Part shown: piece by piece, positions 397-19,043 of the stretch
How the letters are laid out: each line of letters starts with the position of its first letter
Numbering within the stretch: position 1 is the first letter of the stretch
DNA from: Lineus longissimus
Lineage: Eukaryota > Nemertea > Pilidiophora > Heteronemertea > Lineidae
Length of the DNA stretch: 64,000 nt
NCBI RefSeq assembly: GCF_910592395.1
Contig: NC_088310.1
Coordinates: forward strand, 7,501 to 71,500
Direction of reading: 5' to 3'
Made by a program: the position numbers and the translations under genes
Notes under the pieces: generated by a model
The model's database searches: none
Told to the model about the DNA's origin: nothing
What the model saw: only the letters and a program-made list of their open reading frames with translations

Positions 397-3112
397 ATGG
401 GTGCTGATCAAAGCAACCCTGTGGTTCCTCCAGCTGGACTCAAGTCACAGAGAGATGATGACATTCCTTACACATCATATTCCATAAGCAAGCCAATTGA
501 TGGAGGTAAGTGAAAATATTTTAAGTGCAAAATAGATCACATTCCTAAGTTTGCCAGCAGGCATTATCTTCTTGCTGTTGCGCATCATGCCATATGTGTT
601 AGCCCATTTTAACCTATCGCATTTACGCCTACTTAGCGATAGGTTAACGCGTTTCGTTCCCCGAAATTCAATATGGCCGCCATCGAATTACCAAGTGAGT
701 GACAGACCTGAAACTTATGTGGTGTGATAACCTAGGGTAGAGGAGGTTCCCTATCGATTTTGGACTCGACCTGAAATCTGAGATGGTCGCCAGGCCGCCA
801 TCTTTGTTTTGTATTCTGCCCCATCGAATTACCAAGTGAGTGACAGACCTGAAACTTATGTGGTGTGATAACCTAGGGTAGAGGAGGTTCTCTATCGATT
901 TTGGGCTATCATGGCCACCAGGCCGCCGTCTTTTTTTCACTTTCCACCCCACAACTCAATAACCGGTTTCAGGAGTCACAGACATGAAACTTATGTGGTG
1001 TGATGCCCCAGTGTAGGGGAGGTTCTCGATCCTAAATCGAATATGGTCTTTTTTTTCTCTCACATTCTGCCCCATAACTCCAGAACTGAGTAAGTGACAC
1101 TCCAGAAACTTCTGTGTTGTGATGGCCTAGTGTAGGGGAGCTTTCCTATAGATGAATGACCTGACACAATATCCAATATGGCTGCCAGGCTGCCATCTTT
1201 ACACCTCATAACTTCAAAATCAGTTTAGTGACAGGTCCGTGAACTCTGGTGCCCACGGAGCAGGGGCATACATTGCGATTCGCGTCGATCACGTTATATC
1301 TAGTTTGTGTGTAAAAATAAAGTTTTCGTACCTTTATACATTTGTCACTAAAAAAGAATTATCTATTTGATCTTTCTGTCAACCCATAAATTAGTATCCT
1401 TCTCAGGTTATTTTCCCATACTTTCAGGAACACCTCGCTCATCTCCCCGGCTTCACAATAAGCAGCGGGAGAAAGGACCGCAGCCTTCGAAAGATAAAGA
1501 GAAGGAGGGACAACTAATACACAATATTGTAGTTGTAAAAGAGGGCCAAGACGATTCTGATCAAGTAGATCCAGAGATCCAGAAACTTGAAGATATTGCA
1601 GTTTTCCTACCAGTGATGAGAGGATCTTTAAATATTCCCAATCTGCGTGATGTTGATTGTATGGATCGACTTGACCCAAAACAAGTCCTCATGATGTGTG
1701 TCCGCTATCAGGAACACTTGAAACAGTGTGCGGAAGCCATAGCCTTTGATCAGAATGCTTTGTGTGTCAGGATCAAAGAGGTGAGTACAGCTTTCCAAAG
1801 CTTCACAGATGTGATGTTTGAAAGTAAATTTGGTTCTTTTTTAGATCACCTTAGGGGAGTTTATACTATACCACAGTGTCTGTCCTCGTTCGTCGTCTGT
1901 ATCCTGTTTCAAAAACTGTGGCACGTTTCTTAACCACCAAAGCTTTGAACTGGAAACTTTTAACACATGAACCTTTTCGGTCCGTTGATCTTGGACACTG
2001 AATTTCGGTCCGATTGATGCCAAAAGTGAAAACCTGAAAATTATGATGTCTCGCTTATAAGAGACTTGTTTTCGATATGATTTTTATGGTAGGTACTACA
2101 TCCTAGCAAAGATACATCACATATCATACGGGTTTTTGACCTTTCTAGGTCACTGAGGTTAAATTGCGTACTTGGGTTTTGAGGCTTTAACTATGGCACG
2201 TTTCTTAACTGCAGTGTCCTTTGATCTTACACATGTACGGCACCCTATAGTCAGGTGATCTCAGGCACCGAAGTAAGGATTAATCTGCTTCACCGCTTGG
2301 CCAACGGGGGGGGCCAAATCTGAAATTCTTAAGAATTTTATCATTGCTTGCCCGATTACCACCTATACTGGTACCATGGGTACATCTGACCACCAAATGG
2401 TATTGTATGTCGTGGAGGTTTTTGATTTGACCTACTTTTCAAAGTCACAGAGGTTGAATGCCATAAAATGTCCATTTGTCTGTATACTGTCACACTGTGG
2501 AACGTTTCTTAACCAGCATGAATTGTCTACTAAATATCGATACGGGTGAGCACATGCCCCCTGGCCTTTTCATTTAGAAGAGATTTCGTGCTGCTTCAGA
2601 AAAAAGGTGAAGTCTAGGCAGCAACACTTAATCACAATTTGCCTCATCATCACACACATTGTTATGTGCTAAAGAGAGAAAGAAAGCTTTACCAAGTAGA
2701 GACTTTAATTATGATTTTTACTCTGTACTGTATTTATCGAGTTAAGAATATAAGGTACATACTGCTTGGAATCTCGAAAACATTGTGCATTAATTTTTTA
2801 GAATCAACCAATTTATTCTAATCACCAGATTTAATTTTGCTGCAACTTCAATGCTGCCCTACATGACTTTCTGTTTGACTATTTCAGATTGACTTTGCCA
2901 TTCAAACTCTGAACAGCATGATCACAGAACGACAGAAGAAGTATGCCAAATATGCTGAACAAATCCAGAAAGTGCAAGAAGTCTCCTCAGTTCTTACTCG
3001 GATCAAGATGAATGTTGATGAACTTGTTCCACTCATGGAAAGATTAAATAGTGTGCTCCCTCCTGATGACCAACTTGAACCATTTGTTATGAGGCCAACA
3101 AAGACTTGCTGA
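397..3112 (+). CDS. BORCS5: BORCS5 (myrlysin), BLOC-1-related complex subunit 5; 3 coding exons
   Basis: Coding exons are 397-505, 1428-1780 and 2888-3112. All introns are GT..AG and the phases agree, giving 687 nt (228 residues plus stop; the human protein is about 196). The start ATG is followed by Gly2 and Ser6 (MGADQS), a good N-myristoylation signal, as expected for the subunit that anchors BORC to lysosomes. Exon 2 encodes the family core, including KLEDIAVFLPVMRG, VRYQEHLKQCAEA and FDQNALCVRIKE. Exon 3 encodes the helical part, with ITERQKKYAKYAEQIQKV and the C-terminal LPPDDQLEPFVMRP. In the family, BORC recruits ARL8 to lysosomes and couples them to kinesin for outward transport. The extra length compared with human lies in the low-complexity linker between the myristoylated tip and the core. 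The match to vertebrate BORCS5 is from memory but is extensive and colinear. Confidence 0.93.
684..1262. repeat. Diverged tandem repeat, about 4 copies of a 120-140 bp unit, in BORCS5 intron 1
   Basis: Copies begin near 690, 829, 965 and 1086. Each holds a GTGACAG-like start, then GAAACTTATGTGGTGTGAT, then CCTAGGGTAGAGGAGGTT, and ends in a GGCCGCCATCTTT-like stretch. The first two copies are nearly identical over about 100 bp and the last two are diverged. The repeat lies wholly inside the intron. Confidence 0.8.
1880..2520. repeat. Degenerate tandem repeat (period near 280-300 bp) in BORCS5 intron 2
   Basis: A motif close to CTGTGGCACGTTTCTTAAC recurs near 1915, 2193 and 2495. The motif GTTTTTGACCT followed by AGGTCACTGAGGTTAAAT recurs near 2130 and 2420. 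The copies are strongly diverged, so this is an old tandem or dispersed repeat. Confidence 0.55.
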
Positions 3113-5420: not shown

Positions 5421-5644
5421 GTCATTATTTTTTCAAGTTTGTGCCAAACTCCGGGAAACCCTCCTAACCACTGGTACTAGAGATGCTGGGGGACCATTTG
5501 AGCTATATTTGATCAATTTTGACTTAGGGCGCATGGAGAACTTGCTGTGCGAAAAGGTGGTAATTTCACTTTCGGCGGCGTGATAATTACCAGGTTGGGG
5601 GTCTGAAGTTTTGGGGTCATTTTTGACCATTTGTGACACAATGG

Positions 5645-7535
5645 TTTATTCCTTAAAATGATGAAGGTCAATATTACTGGCAATTTTCTTGACTATGTAA
5701 AAAGTTTTTATGGATCAATGTCAAGCTGTGTCAAATTTCCTCAAGGAATGTCACAGTTTTTTAATGTTGAGGCTGGGACTCGTCAGGGTGATGTCTTGAG
5801 CCCCACACTGTTCAATCTTTTCATCAATGATGTTGTAAATGTATTAGATCAGGTCAATCCTTCACCAGCTTTGTTAGAAACAACTAGGTTATCATCTCTA
5901 CTGTATCGGACGATTTGTTTCTCTTCTCTCTTACCCCAAAAGGCCTCCAGACATGTCTAGATGGTCTTTCCCAATACTGCAAAACTTGGGAGACTTCAAA
6001 TCAATTTCAACAAATCAAAGATTATGGTCTTTGAAAAGAATATCAGATCAGAGACCTTTTATGCTGGATGGTGTTATACTTGATCGGGTGTACGACTTCA
6101 CATACCTTGGTACATCAATTGATTTCAGGGGCTCTTTTAAAGCCAGAGTTGATTTGTGAACTAAAAAAGGTTCCAAAGCTTTCTATGTATTAATGAAAAC
6201 AATCAACTCCAATGGTATAGAACTACGCACTACTATTCGTTTGTTTAGTAGTTATATCAAGCCAATTCTTTCTTATAATTGTGAAATCTGGAGTTTTACC
6301 TATCTTAAGTCACTCCTTGTTAACGACAGTAATAAGTTCTTTAAACAGGTAGATCGATTTCCTTTTGAACAACTGTTGTCTAAATTTTTGGGTGTTAACA
6401 GATTTACTTCCAATTGTGGAGTTAAAGCAGAATTAGGTCTTTATCCATTTGTTAATTTCATGTTCAAGCATGCTTTTATAATAATAATAATACGAGTCTT
6501 ATATAGCGCAGTATCCAACCATCAACTGGTCGCTCAAAGCGCTTGGGGAAATCATATTATTACCCCGGTCTCCACAGAAATCAATCAGGGGTTTCAAGGA
6601 GCAACCCCAGAAGGTGCTCACTTGAACTCGACCAGTAGGGGAACTATGCAGTGACTCGGCCGGGAGTCGAACCCACGACCTCCTGATCATGAGGCCGACT
6701 CTCTTCCACTGCGCTTCCGCTACTTAACTTACCTATTTATTTTATGTTAAATCCTCCAGTAATGCCTTTCTCAATGAAGCTTATGAAATTGACAATAAGC
6801 TCACACAGTCTTGTAGTATCAACAAGGCGGTCTCTGCAATTATTGATGCATTGAATGCTAAATGTCAGAAAGATTTTGACCTTTCCTCTGGTAGCACTTG
6901 CATTTCCAATTTGCTTGAATCCTTTTATCGCACTCACTTTTTCTCTGTCCTAAAAAACGACAGAAGGTCGGATCCTAATCAAAAGAATAAACTCAGGACA
7001 TACAGAACTTTTAAAACAGAGTATCAATTTGAGCCCTACCTCGATGCATTAAAAAATCGTGGGGTCTTTTCCAAAATGGCTAAGTTTCGCCTGAGCAATC
7101 ACAACCTACCGGTACTCATTGAAAAAGGTAGACATTTTGGTACTCAGTTGGAAAAGCATCTGTGTCCATTTGGGTGTGACGTAGTAGAAGACGAATTTCA
7201 TTTTTTGCTAGATGTCCTTCTATTCAAAAACTAAGAGATGAGTATTTTAAGAATATTGCTTTTTGTAAAGATAGTCACTTGTTCTCCAATTCGGATTTTA
7301 TTTCCACATTGAGCAGCACTGATGATCACGACATCATCATCAAGACTGCTATTTTTATCTCCAGGGCTTTTTACGAAAGGCAAGCAGCTCTTCAGGAGCA
7401 ATGACAATATAATTTTACCAATGTGACTTCTGATATGTTTTAATGTAATGTCTTTTATTGTGTAATATTCATGCATGTATATGCCATACTGTCTGTACTT
7501 GTGATAGTTGTGCAGATAAATAATTTGAATTTGAA
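5645..7535 (+). mobile_element. Decayed, 5'-truncated non-LTR retrotransposon (LINE) with reverse-transcriptase remnants
   Basis: Frames in this span read as the C-terminal half of a LINE polyprotein. It starts in the RT palm, with GTRQGDVLSPTLFNLFINDV at about 5775-5834. The YADD catalytic box is broken by a one-base loss at about 5904-5914 (TAT CG GAC GAT). YLGTSIDFRG-like and SSYIKPILSYNCEIWSF blocks follow. After a SINE insertion (6484-6723) the frame resumes and reads KFRLSNHNLPVLIEKGRH, then a Cys-rich CPFGCDVVEDEFHFLL end with a frameshift near 7200, and RAFYERQAALQEQ with a stop at about 7401. The 3' end is an AATTTGAATTTGAATTTG-type tail near 7517-7538, typical of CR1/L2-like elements. 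The element is inactive. Its exact clade is inferred. Confidence 0.85.
6484..6723 (-). mobile_element. tRNA-derived SINE inserted in the LINE
   Basis: On the minus strand the head (6723 down to 6651) is a 73-nt tRNA-like sequence. It has an A-box-like AGCGCAGTGG, an anticodon region CTCATGA and a B box GGTTCGACTCC, and is most like elongator tRNA-Met(CAT). The body runs to a tail with a CAAAGCGCTT / TATATAGCGC pair and ends in an (ATT)n run seen as ATAATAATAAT on the plus strand at 6480. It splits the LINE coding sequence, so it is younger than that LINE. No clean target-site duplication was identified. Confidence 0.8.
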
Positions 7536-8445: not shown

Positions 8446-11400
8446 ATGCTGAGTAAAGCTGACAAGGTTGATGTAAAGTCAACAGCTTCTTCGACTAGTT
8501 TGAATGAAAGTCGAGCTGGAGGAACGTCTGTTGCCAATGATGACGATGAAGTGTGTCACACTCGCAGTGCACTGACTAGTGCTGGTGATATGGACGCTGT
8601 AGATGCCGAATACACCCGTCTGTGTCTTCATCCGTTTGGTGGAACAGGGAGAGCAAGAGCTGGAGATTATGTAGTGTGCTTCTGGTTGCTTGGGATTTTG
8701 AGTTTCATGACGCACATGTATAACATTGAAGTCCCAGATCATGTTTGGTAAGAAAGATGGTATGCGAAAATAAATTTCGGCCATTAAACTAGAGACTGCT
8801 GTGGCGTAATAACAGCTACTGTCTTTGAAAAGAACTTTTTAACTTCTATGGTTATGATCTTTGAACTCCCACTTGCCTGGTTTTCCCGATAGAGGCACGA
8901 CTGTCTTATCGTGAAAAATGTGATGAGTCCAACATCGTTGTAGTATGCACCGAGCATTATCCGTGAGTTATGAAAAAAAGATGTATTTTGGCATAAAGAA
9001 TACAACACAATACATGCAAGATATGAATAAGTAAACATTTTAAAAAGTATTGCTTTCTTGGAGAGTGAACACAAATGTTGGATGTTTTGTGAATTGTATT
9101 CTTTGTCCCAAAATGCATCTTTTTTATTTAAATATTTTTTTCATAACTCGCGGATAATGCTCGGTGCATACTACAACGATGTTGGACTCGTCACATTTTT
9201 CACGATTAGACAGTGGTGCCTTTATCGGGAAAACCAGGCAAGTGGGAGTTCAAAGGTCATAACCAACTTCCAGCTATGGTATGGAAATAGTTGGTGTATG
9301 TTTTCCCGGTTTGGAAATAAAACGGATGGTTTGATTTAAGTAAAATTGTAAAATTGGTGGTTTGAATACAAAATAATTCTTTCCAAAAAGTACTTAAAAT
9401 TGGATGGCTGAAATTTTTTTGGAATGAAGAATTTCGCTGTGGTAGTTTTTGATATCATCACAAGTCAATGGATTGTTCCTAAAAGCACACAGTAGAGACA
9501 TTATTGAGAGACAGTCTTATTGACGTCTGAATGAATTACTTTCTATAGTACAAGTACCATGGTACTTTTCTGAAGGCATATTTCATCCAACTAAATGTGA
9601 CAGCTACTTTATCTAAAGTCAACTGTATGTCGTGTGATATTCTTGTCTTTGTCCATTTCAGCTGGGATGAAACTCATTTTGGTAAAATGGGTAGCTGGTA
9701 CATCAACCGAACATTCTTCTTTGATGTTCATCCTCCTCTTGGAAAGGTGAGAGCTTATGGATCTTGAGGTTAAGTTAACTCTGAGGCTCATCCTCCTCTC
9801 AGTCTCAGAAAGGTGAGTTCCTCTTACGGATCTTGAGGTTAAGTTAACTCTGAGGCTCATCCTCCTCTCAGTCTCAGAAAGGTGAGTTCCTCTTATGGAT
9901 CTTGAGGTTAAGTTAACTCTGAGGTTCATCCTCCTCTCAGTCTCAGAAAGGTGAGTTCCTCTTATGGATCTTGAGGTTAAGTTAACTCTGAGGCTCATCC
10001 TCCTCTCAGTCTCAGAAAGGTGAGTTCCTCTTATGGATCTTGAGGTTAAGTTAACTCTGAGGCTTATCCTCCTCTCAGTCTCAGAAAGGTGAGTTCCTCT
10101 TACGGATCTTGAGGTTAACTCTGAGGTTCATCCTCCTCTCAGAAAGGTGAGTTCCTCTTATGGATCTTAAGGTTAACTCTGAATTTCATCCTCCTCTCAG
10201 TCTCAGAAAGGTGAGTTCCTCTTATGGATCTTGAGGTTAACTCTGAGGCTCATCCTCCTCTCAGTCTCAGAAAGGTGAGTTCCTCTTATGGATCTTGAGG
10301 TTAACTCTGAGGCTCATCCTCCTCTCAGTCTCAGAAAGGTGAGTTCCTCTTATGGATCTTGAGGTTAACTCTGAGGCTCATCCTCCTCTCAGTCTCAGAA
10401 AGGTGAGTTCCTCTTACGGATCTTGAGGTTAACTCTGAGGTTCATCCTCCTCACAGAAAGGTGAGTTGAGGCTCATCCTCCTCACAGTCTCAGAAAGGTG
10501 AGTTCCTCTTATGGATCTTAAGGTTATCTCTGTGGTTCATCCTCCTCTCAGAAAGGTGAGTTCCTCTTACGGAATTTGAGGTTTAGTTAACTCTGAGGTT
10601 CATCCTCCTCTCAGAAAGGTGAGTTCCTCTTACGGAATTTGAGGTTAAGTTACTTCTGAGGTTCATCCTCCTCTCAGAAAGGTGAGTTCCTCTTATGGAT
10701 CTTGAGGTTAACTCTGAGGTTCATCCTCCTCTCAGAAAGGTGAGTTCCTCTTATGGATCTTGAGGTTAACTCTGAGGTTCATCCTCCTCTCAGAAAGGTG
10801 AGTTCCTCTTATGGATCTTGAGGTTAACTCAGAGGTTCATCCTCCTCTCAGAAAGGTGAGTTCCTCTTATGGATCTTGAGGTTAACTCTGAGGTTCATCC
10901 TCCTCTCAGAAAGGTGAGTTCCTCTTGATCTTAAGGTTTACTTTGAGGTTCATTCTCCTCGGAATGGTGAGTCCATCTATGGATCTGGGGTTTATCATCT
11001 GTCCTAAATATGATTGGTATACGTTGTGTCCATCTCCCCTCATTCCAAGACATCCAGATCTTAGTATAGTTCTACTTTGTACTTTCAGATGCTAATCGGG
11101 TTTGCTGGACAGTTGACTGGCTATGATGGAACATTTGCTTTTGACAAACCTGGAGACAAATACAGGAATAGCTCAGATTTTGTTGGTATGAGAGTGGTAA
11201 GTTAGTAAGAAGTGCAATTCATCATCTTTGTAGCCTGGTGTGCTTGTTGCATGTGTTGGCTGTGTTTACTTGGCAAGCTGGATTGCTTCTCAAATGTCAA
11301 TGTGTTCTGGTTGGTCTTGCATCATTCGGAATTGATTTTCATATGGAATGCCTCTTGTGTTAAGCAGGTGTTAGATAATGTTTGTGTTGAGCAGGTGTTA

Positions 11401-14400
11401 TATGAGTTTTTAGTATTGTTCATCGACTTGATTATTGATTCCTTTGCAGGTGACTTTTTGTTTGATGTCACCATTGACATTCAAGCACATGTAGACTTGT
11501 CATCATTTGCGATGATTAAACACCTGTGCATATGCTCTGTTCCCTCATCTCGTCCTCTATTCAGCCACAAATCAATGATAGACCTATAAATCATGTGTGA
11601 CTTCTCAATGCTGCAATGTTGACTTTTTCATGTCAAGAATAACCTCACAGCGTCTGGTTTTGTCAATCAATAAGGCCTAACCCAATACCTATTCTTTTTG
11701 GAACATAAAAAACTTTGTCTGACACATCTTCTGTGGGAAAATAATATGGTGGGCATGGTTGATTCCTTGGCAAAAGTTGTAGAAAAAGTGCAATTCTTCA
11801 TGTTCTCTTTCAGTTCTGTGCATGTTTTGGAGCCCTGCTGGTGCCTTTTGCCTACCATATTGTCTATATCCTCTCACAGTCGGTTCCTGCTGCACTACTT
11901 GCTGGCATTATTGTGCTATGTGGTGAGTGAGCAAATGTTGCACTTCATAAAAATGAGCAAAAAAGTCCACATTTTGTAACATCGTTCTGAATTTTTGAAA
12001 AGTTGTCGTAACTTGGTTTGGGTTAAACAAAAACCATTTAAAAGTCACTGTCACAAGAGCTAGTTGGCATTGTGCTTGAAGTTGCTCACACACTGCCGAT
12101 GAGCAATAGAATATAATGATATCGATAAATGCATTAAATAGATGTAAAACAGTTGAAAGCATGACATAAACATAAACAAGTTTGTTCATATTTCAGAGAA
12201 TGGTACTTTAACTCTGACCCGTTATATCCTCCTCGATCCTTTTCTCATCTTCTTCATTGTTGGATCTGTCTTCTCCTATGTTAACTTTATGGTGGAATAT
12301 TCAAGGTAAGAGATTCTACCTTACACTGTCAGTTGTCACTCGTTGCTGATCAACATGGTTCTTTTCGAGATCAGGACAGGTTCAAAAACTCATTGAAAGT
12401 GAGCTGCCTGTTAACCTGTCATAGGTGGAATAGAGAGAATCATTTGCCAGCTTCCAACAACATAAAGTTAGGCTTGTTATAAAAGGGTTCAGCGTTTGAA
12501 AAGTACAGACAAAACTCTGTAGCAAAATGGTTAATCTGCCCCTGTGCCAGAAATAGCCATTTTTCAAATCACAGAGGCGGAGCGCTCGTAAATTTGAACC
12601 ATGCACCAGACGTATAGCCCATCTGGAAAATCAATAACCCAACAAACTCCGCTTTCATGCAGTGAATATCTTAATTTCAGGCCATTTGGTGTCACGTGGT
12701 GGTACTGGTTGTCCATGACTGGTATATTCCTTGCCTTCTCTATTGGGTAAGTCGTGTGGTACTGGTTGTCCATGACTGGTATATTCCTTGCCTTCTCTAT
12801 TGGGTAAGTCGTGTGGTACTGGTTGTCCATGACTGGTATATTCCTTGCCTTCTCTATTGGGTAAGTCGTGTGGTACTGGTTGTCCATGACTGGCATATTC
12901 CTTGCCTTCTCTATTGGGTAAGTCGTGTGGTACTGGTTGTCCATGACTGGTATATTCCTTGCCTTCTCTATTGGGTAAGTCGTGTGGTACTGGTTGTCCA
13001 TGACTGGTATATTCCTTTCCTTCTCTATTGGGTAAGTCGTGTGGTACTGGCCATAGATGACTGGTATATTCCTTGCCTTCTCTATTGGGTAAGTCGTGTG
13101 GTACTGGCCATAGATGACTGGTATATTCCTTGCCTTCTCTATTGGGTAAGTCGTGTGGTACTGGCTGTCCATGACTGGTATATTCCTTTCCTTCTCTATT
13201 GGGTAAGTCGTGTGGTACTGGTTGTCCATGACTGGTATATTCCTTGCCTTCTCTATTGGGTAAGTCGTGTGGTACTGGTTGTCCATGACTGGTATATTCC
13301 TTGCCTTCTCTATTGGGTAAGTCGTGTGGTACTGGTTGTCCATGACTGGTATATTCCTTGCCTTCTCTATTGGGTAAGTCGTGTGGTACTGGTTGTCCAT
13401 GACTGGTATATTCCTTTCCTTCTCTATTGGGTAAGTCGTGTGGTACTGGTTGTCCATGACTGGTATATTCCTTGCCTTCTCTATTGGGTAAGTCGTGTGG
13501 TACTGGCCATAGATGACTGGTATATTCCTTTCCTTCTCTATTGGGTAAGTCGTGTGGTACTGGCCATAGATGACTGGTATATTCCTTGCCTTCTCTATTG
13601 GGTAAGTCGTGTGGTACTGGTTGTCCATGACTGGTATATTCCTTGCCTTCTCTATTGGGTAAGTCGTGTGGTACTGGCCATAGATGACTGGTATATTCCT
13701 TGCCTTCTCTATTGGGTAAGTCGTGTGGTACTGGCCATAGATGACTGGTATATTCCTTGCCTTCTCTATTGGGTAAGTCGTGTGGTACTGGTTGTCCATG
13801 ACTGGTATATTCCTTGCCTTCTCTATTGGGTAAGTCGTGTGGTACTGGCCATAGATGACTGGTATATTCCTTGCCTTCTCTATTGGTTAAGTCGTGTGGT
13901 ACTGGCCATAGATGACTGGTATATTCCTTGCCTTCTCTATTGGGTAAGTCGTGTGGTACTGGCCATAGATGACTGGTATATTCCTTGCCTTCTCCATTGG
14001 GTAAGTCTGCGCTGTTTACTGTATATCGAATGGAATAGAGTTTGCTTGTTGGCTTCCTCACTTTCTTGCCTTCTCACCTTTGCCGAGCCAACGATTGACT
14101 TTCCATGGATTACCAGTCATTCCAAGCCACCAAACCTAATCATTGCTCCTTGTTTTCTAGGGTGAAGTTTGTGGGGTTTTTTGTCATCCTCTTTATTGGT
14201 TTGAATACAATCAAGGAACTCTACGATCTTTTCTCTGATACCTCAAATCAACTGGTAAGTTTTTCAAAAAGCATTCTGGCATGTTATTTGGTGAAAGTCT
14301 TTTTCTTTTAAACCTAAATTGTAATAAACCATGATGCAGTTATGGTACTCTGACAGAGTGCTGACTGAGAGCTTATCACCATCGCATCACTGTTAGTCTT

Positions 14401-17400
14401 TCAGGGCTTCAATGTTGCTTTTGAAGTGAAGTTCCACTCTCCTTGAATGTAAAACATTGTCCACTTAGTCCATTTCCAGTTAGGACGTGCCCACATAGAC
14501 AGCTGATGTTCTGTCCCCAAGAAAACATTGCACAGGTCTATTCTTGGTTTACTTTGACGCTTTGCTGTTTCTTTTCAGATGGTTATTTTCAAGCATTTTG
14601 TTGGTCGTGCCGTTTGTCTGATAGCCTTGCCGGTGGTTGTTTATATGGGTATATTTGCTAACCATCTCCACATGTTGAACCATAGGTAGGTCCCGTCTGA
14701 TTTCACTTCTTGTTAGTCTTAGGCCACACAACCTGTATTTCTGCTGGTTGCAGCAGGTTTTGTGATTTGCGTCCAATGCAGCATTATGAATCGGCCTTAT
14801 GATTCCTCCCTTTTCTTTCCAGTGGCGGTGGTGATGGGATGTTCAGTGCCCAGTTTCAGATTCACCTTAACAACAATAGACTGAATGGTCTCGATTTGCC
14901 TGAAGGTATGTACATGTATAAAGATGACAATAAACCATCTTAATTCGAGCTGCATGGACAGAAGGGAACATAATGGTTGTGATGATTCCTGGTTGGTTGT
15001 ATGTCAAACATGTATTGTTGTTTCAAGACCTTCTTTGTTTGTTGCAGAAGTAGCATTTGGTTCCAAAGTAAGTATCAAGCAGTACCGCACCGGGGGAGCT
15101 TATCTCCACTCACACTGGCATCTCTACCCCAAGGAGCATCCACCTCAGCAACAACAGGTGACCAGCTATGGACACAAGGATGAGAACAACATCTGGATCA
15201 TCAAGAAATCAACAGGTCAAGTGAACGTATCAGTCGATCCTGTGGAGTACGTTAAGAATGGCGATATCATCAGACTGGAGCATGAACAGTAAGCCAAGTT
15301 CAACGCTTATGCATTATTGTAATGAACAAGATTAATCTGCATGGAACTATGATCAACCAAGGCATGGTAGTAAGGCCTGTGTTTCTCGGCTGGTTGGTGA
15401 TTATCTTCCCAGCGACGTCTAATGGTCTCGTGTTCATCCATATGGTCATATATTTTCAGTGATATTTTTCTTTACCTAATTCTGGTGATGTTATCTGATA
15501 GTATGCACATATTTCATTTGTGTCTCTGCAGGACTAGACGGAATATGCACAGTCACAAAGAGCCAGCTGCACTAACAAAAACACATTTCCAAGTCAGTTG
15601 CTATGGAGAGGTAAGGTTTTTCACTCCATTTGATTGGCTTGCTGGAACCTTGGTAACTTTGAATATTTTGAAATTTGTACAGACATATTGTCAAAATAGA
15701 AGACAGTCAACTCCCCAATGCTGCAGTGATGCTTGATATTGGTTAGGGGCAACAGGGGGTGAGGAAGTTAGATGGGTGGATGGACACTGCTTATGTAGAG
15801 GAAAGGAATACATCATCGGCTGGTGTAGGTTGAGAGCTTGTAGAGGCTGCTGTGGACCAGGATTGCATGATTGATGTCATTGACAAGGGAGGGATACATA
15901 TGTTTGTCAGGAGAGATGTATGATGTGTGGCTTGATTCAAGACTAACCCAGAGAGCATCCCAAAACAGAGTTGATCCCTTTCCCACTTTTTCATTTGTGT
16001 ATTTCAGAATGGAACTGGAGATACAAACGACTACTTCAGAATCAATATTGTGAATGGTGAACCTGGAGAGAGACTTAAGATCATCAATCACCGTGTTCAG
16101 TTCATTCACGTGTCAACAGGATGTACCATCCATTGTAATCAAAGGAAGCTTCCAAAGTGGTGAGTTATAGGTGCTCAAAGGAAACTAGCAAAGTGGTCAG
16201 TTATAGGTGTTCAAAGGAAACTATCAAAGTGGTCAGTTATAGGTGCTCAAAGGAAACTCTCAAAGTGGTCAGTTATAGGTGCTCAAAGGAAACTATCAAA
16301 GTGGTCAGTTATAGGTGCTCAAAGGAAACTAGCAAAGTGGTCAGTTATAGGTGCTCAAAGGAAACTATCAAAGTGGTCAGTTATAGGTGCTCAAAGGAAA
16401 CTATCAAAGTGGTCAGTTGCGACTATCGTATTCAGTTTGTGACAGTTGTATTCAGTTTCAAGCCAAGGCTTCAGTGAAATGAAATAAGTGTGGTTAATTG
16501 TGCTCAGACATGTTTCAACTTGGAAGTTCTTGACCCGACAACTTAATTACCGCATCGCTGCATCCATACTCTTGTTCCAGCTGAAAATGATGGACTTATC
16601 TGATCAGTATCTATTTCATGTGGGTAAATTGTACCGTTCTGTTCTTTGTAATGTACTGAACAGCTCCTTCACTATATGTTTTGATTTCTTTCCCTAGGGG
16701 CTTTGAACAGTTGGAAGTATCATGTACAACCCAGCTGTGGAACCCAAATACAGAGTGGCATATAGAAGAGGTGATTGATGAGAGATGTGAGTACAATGGA
16801 GAGCCCAGTTCTCTTTTTAACAGTACAGAGCATTGTAGTCAGGCTAATGTTCCCAACACGTAGGCAACACATAGAGTTTTCATTGGAGTCATATTTATGT
16901 TCTTTCAGCAGCATTCGATTCTATGCAAGAACTTTTTCTCCAAAATTGCGAAACATACGTAGAAAGTGTTTTTCTCGCATATTTCTTGTTCTTTAATGAT
17001 TGTCCGTTATGAACAGTGACTTACAGGTCAGGGTTAGTGGCTGAAGAAAGTGGACAGTGTTGAAGAGTAGACATGTACCGGTTGTGGGCCCATAGTTGTG
17101 TGGGTGATGCTTTATTCCCTTATCTGCTATCTAGACATTATAATAAACAACATGTAGGTATTCATATTATCCTATCTGAGTTTCAGTACCTAATGTCAGT
17201 TTGAAGAGATATGCCTCGGGATTCCTCTCCAGATTCTATGAATCTCATTTAGTTATGACACAGGTAATCATCCGTTCATGTTCTAGACAGAGCAGTACTT
17301 CCAAAATTCCCAGTCTGCATATACTATTCAGTCTGGCTGAAATTCAGGAAGCTGTGTGAGGGCCCAAGACTGACTGCTTACAGTTTGTTTACAGTATATT

Positions 17401-19043
17401 TGTGATATAACTAGTTAACTCCAAGGATGAGATAGCATGTCTGTGTGAGCCTGCCTATCAGCATAAAGAGAGTTTGTCCTTGCGAGCCTGCCTGTGAGGA
17501 TAATGTTAGTTTGTCCTAGCGAACATGTGCAGATAAAGATAGTTTGTTCTTGCAAGCCTGCCTGTCAGGATAAAGTTAGTTGGTCCTTGTCACTTTAAAG
17601 ATAGTTTGTCCTTGTGAACCTGCCTGTTGGGGTAAACATATATTGTACTTGTGCAACTGTGCCTTGTGCTTGATATAATGTTTCCTTTGCAGGGAAACCG
17701 TGGGCTGAAACCACGACAAGGAGAGGTGACCTCGAGACCATGGATGTGGCCTATCAACCTGAAGGGCCAAGGTTTCTCTGGTGGCGACCATCGTGTCTAC
17801 TTACTTGGTAATCCTATCATCTTCTGGGGTAACATGCTGGTCACCATCATCTACACCGGATTCTACTTGTACCACACTGTCAGGAAGCAGAGGCGCAGAT
17901 ACGATGCCTACCCATACTACGGTGAGTGAAATGAGTCTGGCATGTGGTACAGCTGTGTTTGTTTATGGAGAACCCATATGGGTGAGAGTTGGGAAGGGTT
18001 TAATTTTAACTTAGACACTCTCTTTTGGTGTAATTATTAGCGATAATTGCAAACGATTTGTCAGTGCCACAGATTAAATTGACAATCCCAGATTGCCTCC
18101 AGATATTGTTCTAGTTTGGGTACAGCGTTCTGTTTTCTTCTGCTGAGTGGCTTGTGCCACCTAAAAGGAGAAGTGATCTTTTGACTCTGTTGTTTCTTTA
18201 ATGGTCCTGTTGGTTCTCTTCCAGATTACAAAGAGCGTCAGTTCAGCAGTTTCTGGTGGTTGATTTCATGTTGGGCGATCCACTACCTCCCATTCTGGTC
18301 CATGACAAGAATATTATATTTTCATCATTATTTCCCTGCACTTATGTTTCACTGTATGGCAAATGGTAAGTGGTAGTTTCTGGTTGTTGTTCGGCTGACC
18401 ACTTTTCCCGTCAGTAAACCAACTAACCTGATGAGGAGATACAGCTATCAAGTCCAAACGAGGAGAAATCTTGTTAAAGGCAGAGCACTCGACTTGCTCC
18501 TTATCTCTCATGCATGGTCTAACAAAATCCAGATAATTGAAGCGTCCGAGTTGTCTTATCCCCATCCAGCTTTGCATCATCCTCAACAAGTCATCTCTTG
18601 TTTTAACATTGATTCTCTCTATTCATATATTCGTTCATTTTATTATTGGTTTTTTCAGCCATTGCTTTAGATTATATGTTGGTGAACCTTACGTGGGTGA
18701 TTCCTCAGCGACTACGACAGACAGTCTACTACACTTTCTATGGCCTGCTAATCGCTGGTATAGGACAGAGGTGCGTTTGATTTCCATCATAGGTTATACT
18801 CTCCCACAGTAGCCCCTCTACAATAAGTTTCCCAAAGTTGTTCTTTCTGTTTGAAAGTTTTTAAAGCTCTCATAACCAGTTTTCTCTTCTTGATGATCTG
18901 TATTGCCTCTTTCTATCTTTTACTTGTTCTCTTTCAGCTTTTACTTATTCAGCCCGACTGTGTATGGTATGAATGGTGACTTTGCTACCTCACCCAACAG
19001 CTCCATGTACGGCCTGAAGTGGCTAGATACCTGGGAAATATAG
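8446..19043 (+). CDS. POMT2: POMT2, protein O-mannosyltransferase 2; 18 coding exons
   Basis: Coding exons: 8446-8747, 9662-9746, 11089-11196, 11814-11922, 12197-12305, 12681-12746, 14161-14254, 14579-14685, 14823-14905, 15048-15288, 15532-15610, 16008-16159, 16698-16786, 17187-17263, 17693-17921, 18225-18365, 18659-18770, 18938-19043. All introns are GT..AG and phases close to 2289 nt (762 residues; human about 750). The start has good context (CCACCATGC). A polar N-tail of about 70 residues precedes TM1 (74-92). The GT39 acidic pair is at 103-104 (CWDETHFGK), then DVHPPLGK (122-129) and multi-span membrane exons 4-8. Lumenal MIR repeats cover about 350-540 ([32 protein letters not shown]). 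The C-terminal membrane part contains [20 protein letters not shown] and the ending LKWLDTWEI. The family enzyme works with POMT1 in the ER membrane, moving mannose from dolichyl-phosphate mannose to Ser/Thr, as on alpha-dystroglycan. Introns 2, 6 and 12 begin with minisatellites copied from the exon end. Confidence 0.95.
8850..9264. repeat. Large inverted repeat (about 155-180 bp arms) in POMT2 intron 1
   Basis: The segment 8850-9004 is the near-perfect reverse complement of 9085-9264. Both carry GGTTATGATCTTTGAACTCC / GGAGTTCAAAGGTCATAACC, the CCTGGTTTTCCCGATA segment and the GCACCGAGCATTATCCG segment. The right arm has an extra AT-rich insertion of about 17 nt near 9127. The spacer is about 80 bp. 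Transcribed as part of the POMT2 intron, it would fold into a long dsRNA-like hairpin. It could be a fold-back element or a local inverted duplication. Confidence 0.9.
9726..10978. repeat. Minisatellite built on the exon 2 / intron 2 junction of POMT2 (about 20 copies)
   Basis: The first member is the genuine end of exon 2 and its donor (GTTCATCCTCCTCTTGGAAAG then GTGAGAGC). About 20 further units of roughly 55-70 bp follow. Each holds TTCATCCTCCTCTCAG, AAAG, GTGAGTTCCTCTTA and GATCTTGAGGTTAACTCTGAG. So every unit carries a copy of the coding sequence for VHPPLGK and a strong 5' splice site. Most units also contain a pyrimidine-rich stretch ending in CAG just before the AAAG. Unit length varies by presence of GTCTCA and of AAGTTA. 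Confidence 0.95.
12697..14007. repeat. 57-bp minisatellite built on the exon 6 / intron 6 junction of POMT2 (23 copies)
   Basis: The unit is the last 50 bp of exon 6 (coding [16 protein letters not shown]) plus its donor GTAAGT and a few intron bases. It is repeated 23 times with very high identity. Two unit types interleave: TTGTCCATGACTGG (like the exon) and CCATAGATGACTGG. Because 57 is a multiple of three and one frame lacks stops, open frames of 411-489 codons run across it on both strands. These are artefacts. In the exon frame each unit ends in TAA straight after GGG, so only the first donor preserves POMT2. Confidence 0.97.
16141..16425. repeat. 36-bp minisatellite built on the exon 12 / intron 12 junction of POMT2 (about 8 copies)
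   Basis: The first member is the true exon 12 end and donor (CAAAGGAAGCTTCCAAAGTG then GTGAGTTATAGGTGC). About seven near-identical 36-bp units follow: TCAAAGGAAACTATCAAAG, TGGTCAGTTATAGGTGC. In every downstream unit the donor GTGAGT has become GTCAGT, so the extra splice sites are weakened. This contrasts with the arrays in introns 2 and 6. Confidence 0.93.
17405..17640. repeat. Degenerate tandem repeat (about 40 bp, 5-6 copies) in POMT2 intron 14
   Basis: Copies share TAGTTTGTCCTTG, then GAGCCTGCCTGTCAGGATAAAG, in several diverged versions. It lies within the intron between 17263 and 17693 and does not touch either splice site. Confidence 0.7.

Follow-up and report, generated by a model that had tools for sequence, protein, structure and literature searches.

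Minisatellites lying over exon/intron boundaries are known from amphioxus, where they have been termed mirages; they have been reported in Adh3, TnC and the globin genes BflGb6 and BflGb9 (PMC3087553, PMC3902484), at 5' and 3' boundaries alike, with printed units of 10-72 bp in Adh3 and 150-160 bp in the globins (PMC3087553). Their interior is described there as homogenised and their edges as divergent, regular splicing of the mRNA being undisturbed (PMC3087553, PMC3902484), and it has been proposed that they might be general among cephalochordates and might give rise to new introns (PMC3087553). In amphioxus PGBD5, tandem repeats of 60 and 108 bp in 2-7 copies form two splice-site arrays within one gene, for which the authors also considered heterozygosity and assembly error (PMC3902484). 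For human genes of segmental duplications, variable internal tandem repeats have been described where exon meets intron, on average about 30 bp in 4 copies; they can be kept in the exon of some transcripts or removed by splicing, and new introns may arise from them (PMC2812944). Here we analyse a stretch of 64,000 nucleotides from the nemertean Lineus longissimus (the window), in which three introns of a single gene, POMT2, open with such arrays. By their anatomy the Lineus arrays belong with the mirages, though in a phylum other than that of amphioxus; an earlier note on this DNA had pointed to exon-boundary minisatellites of amphioxus, correctly in view of the papers cited above (PMC3087553, PMC3902484).

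The POMT2 gene was modelled as 18 exons joined by 17 GT-AG introns in a single open frame. Its product carries the Pfam domains PMT, MIR and PMT_4TMC, and its best solved relative in the PDB is yeast PMT2 (437.7 bits, the next relative scoring 340.1). Tandem arrays, termed here A, B and C, occupy the start of introns 2, 6 and 12, and for these Tandem Repeats Finder (TRF) and a copy map give 21, 23 and 8 donor positions, the exon's own included. In each of them the unit is composed of the 3' end of the preceding exon (its last 24, 48 and 21 bases for A, B and C, respectively, those of A having been read by eye) and the start of the intron with its donor. The units of A are 53-69 nt long, with one of 37 nt; B has a 57-nt unit (48 exonic and 9 intronic bases), with one donor mutated to TT; and C has a 36-nt unit (21 exonic and 15 intronic bases), in which 7/7 internal donors read GTCAGT. 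On the gene strand the unit consensuses have no 6-mer in common, and on a plain reading A, B and C would be three separate events. A homogenised interior with divergent edges is seen at both edges of A and at the exon copy of C, while the exon copy of B is identical to 9/22 internal copies. Without their arrays, introns 2, 6 and 12 measure 122, 160 and 286 nt.

The first copy of each array is predicted from homology to be the working junction, because the alignment with yeast PMT2 is free of gaps at all three junctions (2/3, 6/7 and 12/13). Switching to any later donor of an array would lead to a premature stop in 49/49 cases, an outcome that GTRAGT makes automatic in the two phase-2 introns, and the protein is apparently unspoiled by the arrays. 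The internal copies have lost conserved coding (e.g. DVHPPLGK is altered, and LSKW is an altered form). In array B (12754-14007), 9/22 internal copies have 5 substitutions clustered within 6 bases, and these create an in-frame TAG stop.

Each junction was also compared with its own intron, leaving aside the 20 intron bases beside the junction, for 17 donors of POMT2, 2 donors of the neighbouring BORCS5-like gene (two junctions of which are placed one base off) and 19 acceptors. A signal was obtained only at POMT2 donors 2, 6 and 12, and the remaining 14 donors of the gene carry no array. At the acceptor of exon 18 there are two copies of a 21-nt unit, with a TRF score of 67 that was matched by 0/500 shuffles in each of two slices. 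The earlier note had named the gene as POMT2 and had described three independent arrays built of exon end plus donor: the splice model, domains and PDB relatives bear out the first point, TRF and the copy map the second, and the lack of a common 6-mer together with unequal divergence from the exon copies (see below) argues for independence. Its statement that no other exon ends are affected is correct for donors and fails at the exon 18 acceptor. Coordinates are collected in Table 1.

Table 1. Coordinates of POMT2 and its tandem repeats, counted from the first letter of the window
Feature	Positions	Strand	Basis or remark
Exon 2	9662..9746	+	array A is seeded from its 3' end; donor in use, by homology, at 9747 (AAG/GTGAGA)
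Array A, intron 2	9723..10986	+	TRF 9754-10986; 31 leading bases supplied by eye on the copy map
Exon 6	12681..12746	+	array B is seeded from its 3' end; donor in use, by homology, at 12747 (TGG/GTAAGT)
Array B, intron 6	12699..14007	+	TRF and copy map
Exon 12	16008..16159	+	array C is seeded from its 3' end; donor in use, by homology, at 16160 (GTG/GTGAGT)
Array C, intron 12	16139..16418	+	TRF and copy map
37-nt array within intron 14, touching no junction (in-gene contrast)	17447..17652	+	TRF
Two-copy 21-nt unit across exon 18 acceptor (acceptor-side counterpart)	18907..18950	+	TRF, shuffles
POMT2 coding region, 18 exons, 762 aa	8446..19043	+	Splice model, Pfam, PDB relatives

We consider it probable that these junction-spanning minisatellites, of the mirage kind, result from ordinary tandem duplication in a minisatellite-rich subtelomere and are tolerated through splicing at the exon-side copy. 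A short tandem duplication would by chance straddle an exon/intron boundary, and it would be neutral if splicing took the exon-adjacent copy, i.e. the first donor or the last acceptor, because the extra copies would then remain intronic. Duplications within an exon would be lost, and those over a junction would stay silent as long as the exon-side site is used in the RNA; the array may then grow and homogenise as any minisatellite does, presumably by slippage and unequal exchange. The suggestion of the earlier note that selection tolerates expansion just inside the intron is supported; its other suggestion, a mechanism tied to the donor, is weighed below.

The location of the gene fits this setting. 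The genome searched (391,118,348 bases in 30 contigs, a long-read assembly of one haplotype) has the window beginning 7.5 kb into contig C3 (29.08 Mb), and POMT2 about 16-27 kb from the start of that contig. The density of minisatellites is about ten times higher in the first 35 kb of the window (11 TRF rows, with array A listed twice) than in a 200-kb sample of C3 (6 rows), a contrast with P 2e-5 when array A is counted once. We also searched the genome for three AGGTRAGT sites 20-50 bases apart, using the same motif reversed as a control. Among the matches listed (contigs C1-C12, the last perhaps partial), 11/21 donor-array loci are at most 0.5 Mb away from a contig end (4.3% expected, P 2e-10), and on C1-C5 11/17 donor arrays and 5/11 control arrays lie within 1 Mb of one (7.3% expected). 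That POMT2 has three arrays would thus be due in large part to its position in a minisatellite-dense subtelomere.

Arrays over junctions are not confined to POMT2. We sampled twenty evenly stepped 10-kb stretches of C3 and eight loci of the CCT family, 237 kb in all; the CCT set consists of eight multi-exon PF00118 loci and excludes a ninth, which is situated on C16, as well as two places with a long single frame, one each on C2 and C3. Two arrays lie across acceptors. In CCT locus sample L031, a 59-nt unit in 3.6 copies ends with its last copy in an exon, outside the set of 29 intron models considered below, whose peptide matches TCP1-alpha chains over 39/40 residues with no Pfam match. In C3 sample L021, a 64-nt unit in five copies ends with its last copy in a long open frame, also with no Pfam match. 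In both, the fitting copy is the one on the exon side, which mirrors the arrangement at donors. Altogether, 34 arrays were examined in the window (up to 35.2 kb) and the sampled loci, and 5 of them were counted as junction-spanning, namely the three of POMT2 and those of L031 and L021; the two-copy repeat of POMT2 exon 18 scores under the threshold of this set and is not part of it. Two further arrays are candidate acceptor cases: L009 (score 16.4), with two copies ending 8 bases before the acceptor, and L032 (score 12.8), with 1.9 copies. The arrays of L015 and L020 were not counted among the five. As a separate observation, the CCT loci L029 (3122-3567, 3884-4178) and L031 (1701-2193, 3724-4065) contain longer tandem units of 156 and 178 nt, respectively, each in two places per locus, which look like dispersed repeats with an internal tandem structure.

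The loci found with the donor motif were inspected as well, 19 of the 21 listed being fetched and POMT2 and a simple repeat left out. Exon models that end with the first copy (for L043, L049 and L053, the first site with a neighbour within 70 bases) scored at least 12 at 13/19 loci (16% in shuffles) and at least 16 at 11/19 (2.1% in shuffles), and no such model was obtained at 6. The Pfam cut-off was passed by 4 of the 13 exon peptides, with Glyco_transf_7N (galactosyltransferase-type), URO-D, DNA-PKcs CC1/2 and carboxylesterase, and the URO-D exon can be aligned over its full length with solved UROD. When control AGGTRAGT sites of the 200-kb sample were treated as exon ends, 7/13 scored at least 12 and 4/13 at least 16, so that array loci and control sites do not differ significantly (Fisher P 0.47 and 0.17, respectively) and the 13/19 for this reason indicates arrays placed on real donors, but no attraction of arrays to donors.

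In the whole genome the triple motif has 210 matches and its reversal 279, the single sites numbering 25,356 for AGGTRAGT and 37,430 for the reversed form, which gives a donor/control ratio of 1.11 (0.93-1.33) at the level of matches. This count covers the donor motif and its reversal, the acceptor motif (a triple of TTTTCAGG) lying outside it. At the level of loci, grouped by eye on C1-C5, where the listings of both searches are complete judging by their order, there are 17 donor and 11 control loci, a rate ratio of 2.28 (confidence interval, CI, 1.07-4.87, one-sided P 0.024); after removal of POMT2 and the simple repeat, 15 and 11 loci remain, with a ratio of 2.01 (CI 0.92-4.38, P 0.056). 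The donor excess thus lies between none and about two-fold, and is borderline. Regular steps of 84 and 81 bases between AGGTRAGT sites were also seen at C1:111825-112168 and C1:538237-538406, donor-motif arrays with units longer than the pattern permitted.

These figures bear on the donor-tied mechanism of the earlier note, in which transcribed 5' splice sites would themselves provoke duplication through R-loops or U1-bound nascent RNA. The locus-level ratio is in its favour, and so is the nominal excess in POMT2 itself, which has three large donor arrays and no large acceptor ones. Yet sidedness is not significant, at least 3 of the 4 POMT2 junction repeats falling on donors with P 0.31 under equal sides, and acceptors carry arrays in the TCP1-alpha exon and L021 and, in two copies, in POMT2. 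Moreover, the ratio at match level is 1.11, and donors 2, 6 and 12 are not the strongest of the 17 in pairing with U1. The units of A, B and C show no excess of hairpins (z from -0.39 to +1.48 on six strands) and no tendency to form G-quadruplexes, with no G run except one GGG per B unit, and their G-skews are 0.00, 0.15 and 0.29. Seeding by R-loops or hairpins is therefore unsupported by the G-skew and hairpin values, and we regard a donor-specific mutational mechanism as improbable. No sequence motif common to the three units was found on the gene strand, Rfam gave no match, and no relatives were found in viral contigs.

Array B suggests another possibility, namely that arrays begin anywhere and last longer where they include an exon end, since selection would preserve the exon copy as a template for re-homogenisation. 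In B, 9/22 internal copies match the exon copy exactly and copies farther from the exon carry more mismatches (Spearman 0.48, P 0.023), as this explanation would have it; it also accords with the concentration of junction repeats in POMT2, where 4/5 in-gene arrays lie over a junction (P 0.008 for at least 4 under random placement at tolerated sites). In A and C, on the other hand, internal consensus and exon copy disagree at 3/24 and 3/21 exonic sites, so the exon copy did not re-seed these arrays, and array B may simply be young. We find it improbable that such persistence explains the arrays.

Pairing with U1 is relevant to the idea that donor arrays are selected as decoys or as a regulatory device, e.g. 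a buffer for nonsense-mediated decay, a reservoir for U1 or a means of lengthening the intron. Of the 20 internal donors of A, 19 pair better than the working one (-10.2 vs -9.6 kcal/mol), and with the arrays removed introns 2, 6 and 12 take ranks 1, 4 and 8 when the 17 are ordered from the shortest (P 0.046). In C, however, 7/7 internal donors are weaker (-4.5 vs -8.7 kcal/mol), and the stops that follow phase-2 GTRAGT donors arise automatically. A selected function thus appears very unlikely.

Ordinary duplication tolerated by exon-side splicing has several observations to contend with. First, the placement of the arrays is nominally beyond random, in the gene and in the window, all of the P values being post hoc. 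When random placement is limited to tolerated sites, 3/3 large arrays over donors has P 0.002 and at least 3/5 in-gene arrays over donors P 0.010, a range of 0.002-0.010 for the three POMT2 donor arrays; in the window, 3 of 10 arrays lie over donors where 0.28 are expected (P 0.0023), the ten having been picked by hand from the TRF output (period 20-100, at least 3 copies, first 35 kb). Second, a two-fold preference for donors is compatible with the motif test at the level of loci, and arrays occupy real donors at about the motif's own real-donor rate, which does not show that donors attract arrays. Third, in the eight CCT loci arrays were found at 0/29 donors and 0/29 acceptors, the 29 usable models being those left of 34 intron rows considered after 3 without a model and 2 with a poor fit. 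Finally, in duplicated human genes the exon-boundary repeats frequently stay in part of the transcripts, and strict use of the exon-side copy is therefore not guaranteed (PMC2812944).

Elsewhere in the window, a three-exon gene similar to BORCS5 (LOH1CR12) lies upstream of POMT2 (397-505, 1428-1780 and 2888-3112), with junctions free of arrays, and between 20 and 35 kb a codon-usage scan, which is a weak test, recognised no further gene. Intron 1 of POMT2 contains an inverted repeat (8849-9265) with 137-nt arms that are 94% complementary and a spacer of 143 nt. A fragment resembling reverse transcriptase (5637-5957) scores 29.5 bits, just below the Pfam cut-off of 29.6. From 35200 to 64000, near the contig start, there is a long tandem satellite with a period of about 817 bp, whose best 1-kb stretch is 99.8% identical at that lag.

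With mirages at several nemertean genes, the phenomenon becomes comparable across phyla. Array B in addition offers a natural test of competition between donors, 22/23 of which have the same nine bases for pairing with U1, and homology indicates that the first is used. When strong donors compete in vitro, the intron-proximal one is often favoured, and this raises the question of how the first of 23 near-identical donors wins. It is conceivable, but in our view doubtful, that splice-site minisatellites are general in minisatellite-rich animal genomes, that a strict exon-side-copy rule operates among 20 equal donors, and that a real, roughly two-fold junction bias exists.

Among the known systems, the subtelomeric minisatellite clusters of vertebrates share with Lineus a strong enrichment near chromosome ends, and splice sites are not known to have been considered there. 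The human boundary repeats resemble those of POMT2 as minisatellite expansions at exon-intron boundaries with altered intron length, in recently changed genes; they belong, however, to paralogs of segmental duplications, whereas in POMT2 homology fixes the exon end and the extra copies bring stops. The two arrays of PGBD5 provide a precedent for several arrays per gene, although with 2-7 copies and in another phylum. The closest likeness is to the amphioxus mirages. The unit is again an exon end plus splice signal (three donors and one two-copy acceptor in POMT2), either boundary is affected in both animals (donors in POMT2, acceptors in L031 and L021), and the POMT2 units of 36, 57 and 53-69 nt (one of 37) fall in the printed range. 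POMT2 differs in having up to 23 copies and three arrays per gene, and clustering at contig ends has been measured in Lineus; for the Adh3 mirage length and somatic instability are known, while the Lineus arrays were read from one haplotype. A search of the genome for the GFP family, which is large in amphioxus, gave no match, its controls being silent as well. The host is a nemertean and not a cephalochordate, which is a difference of distribution and not of anatomy.

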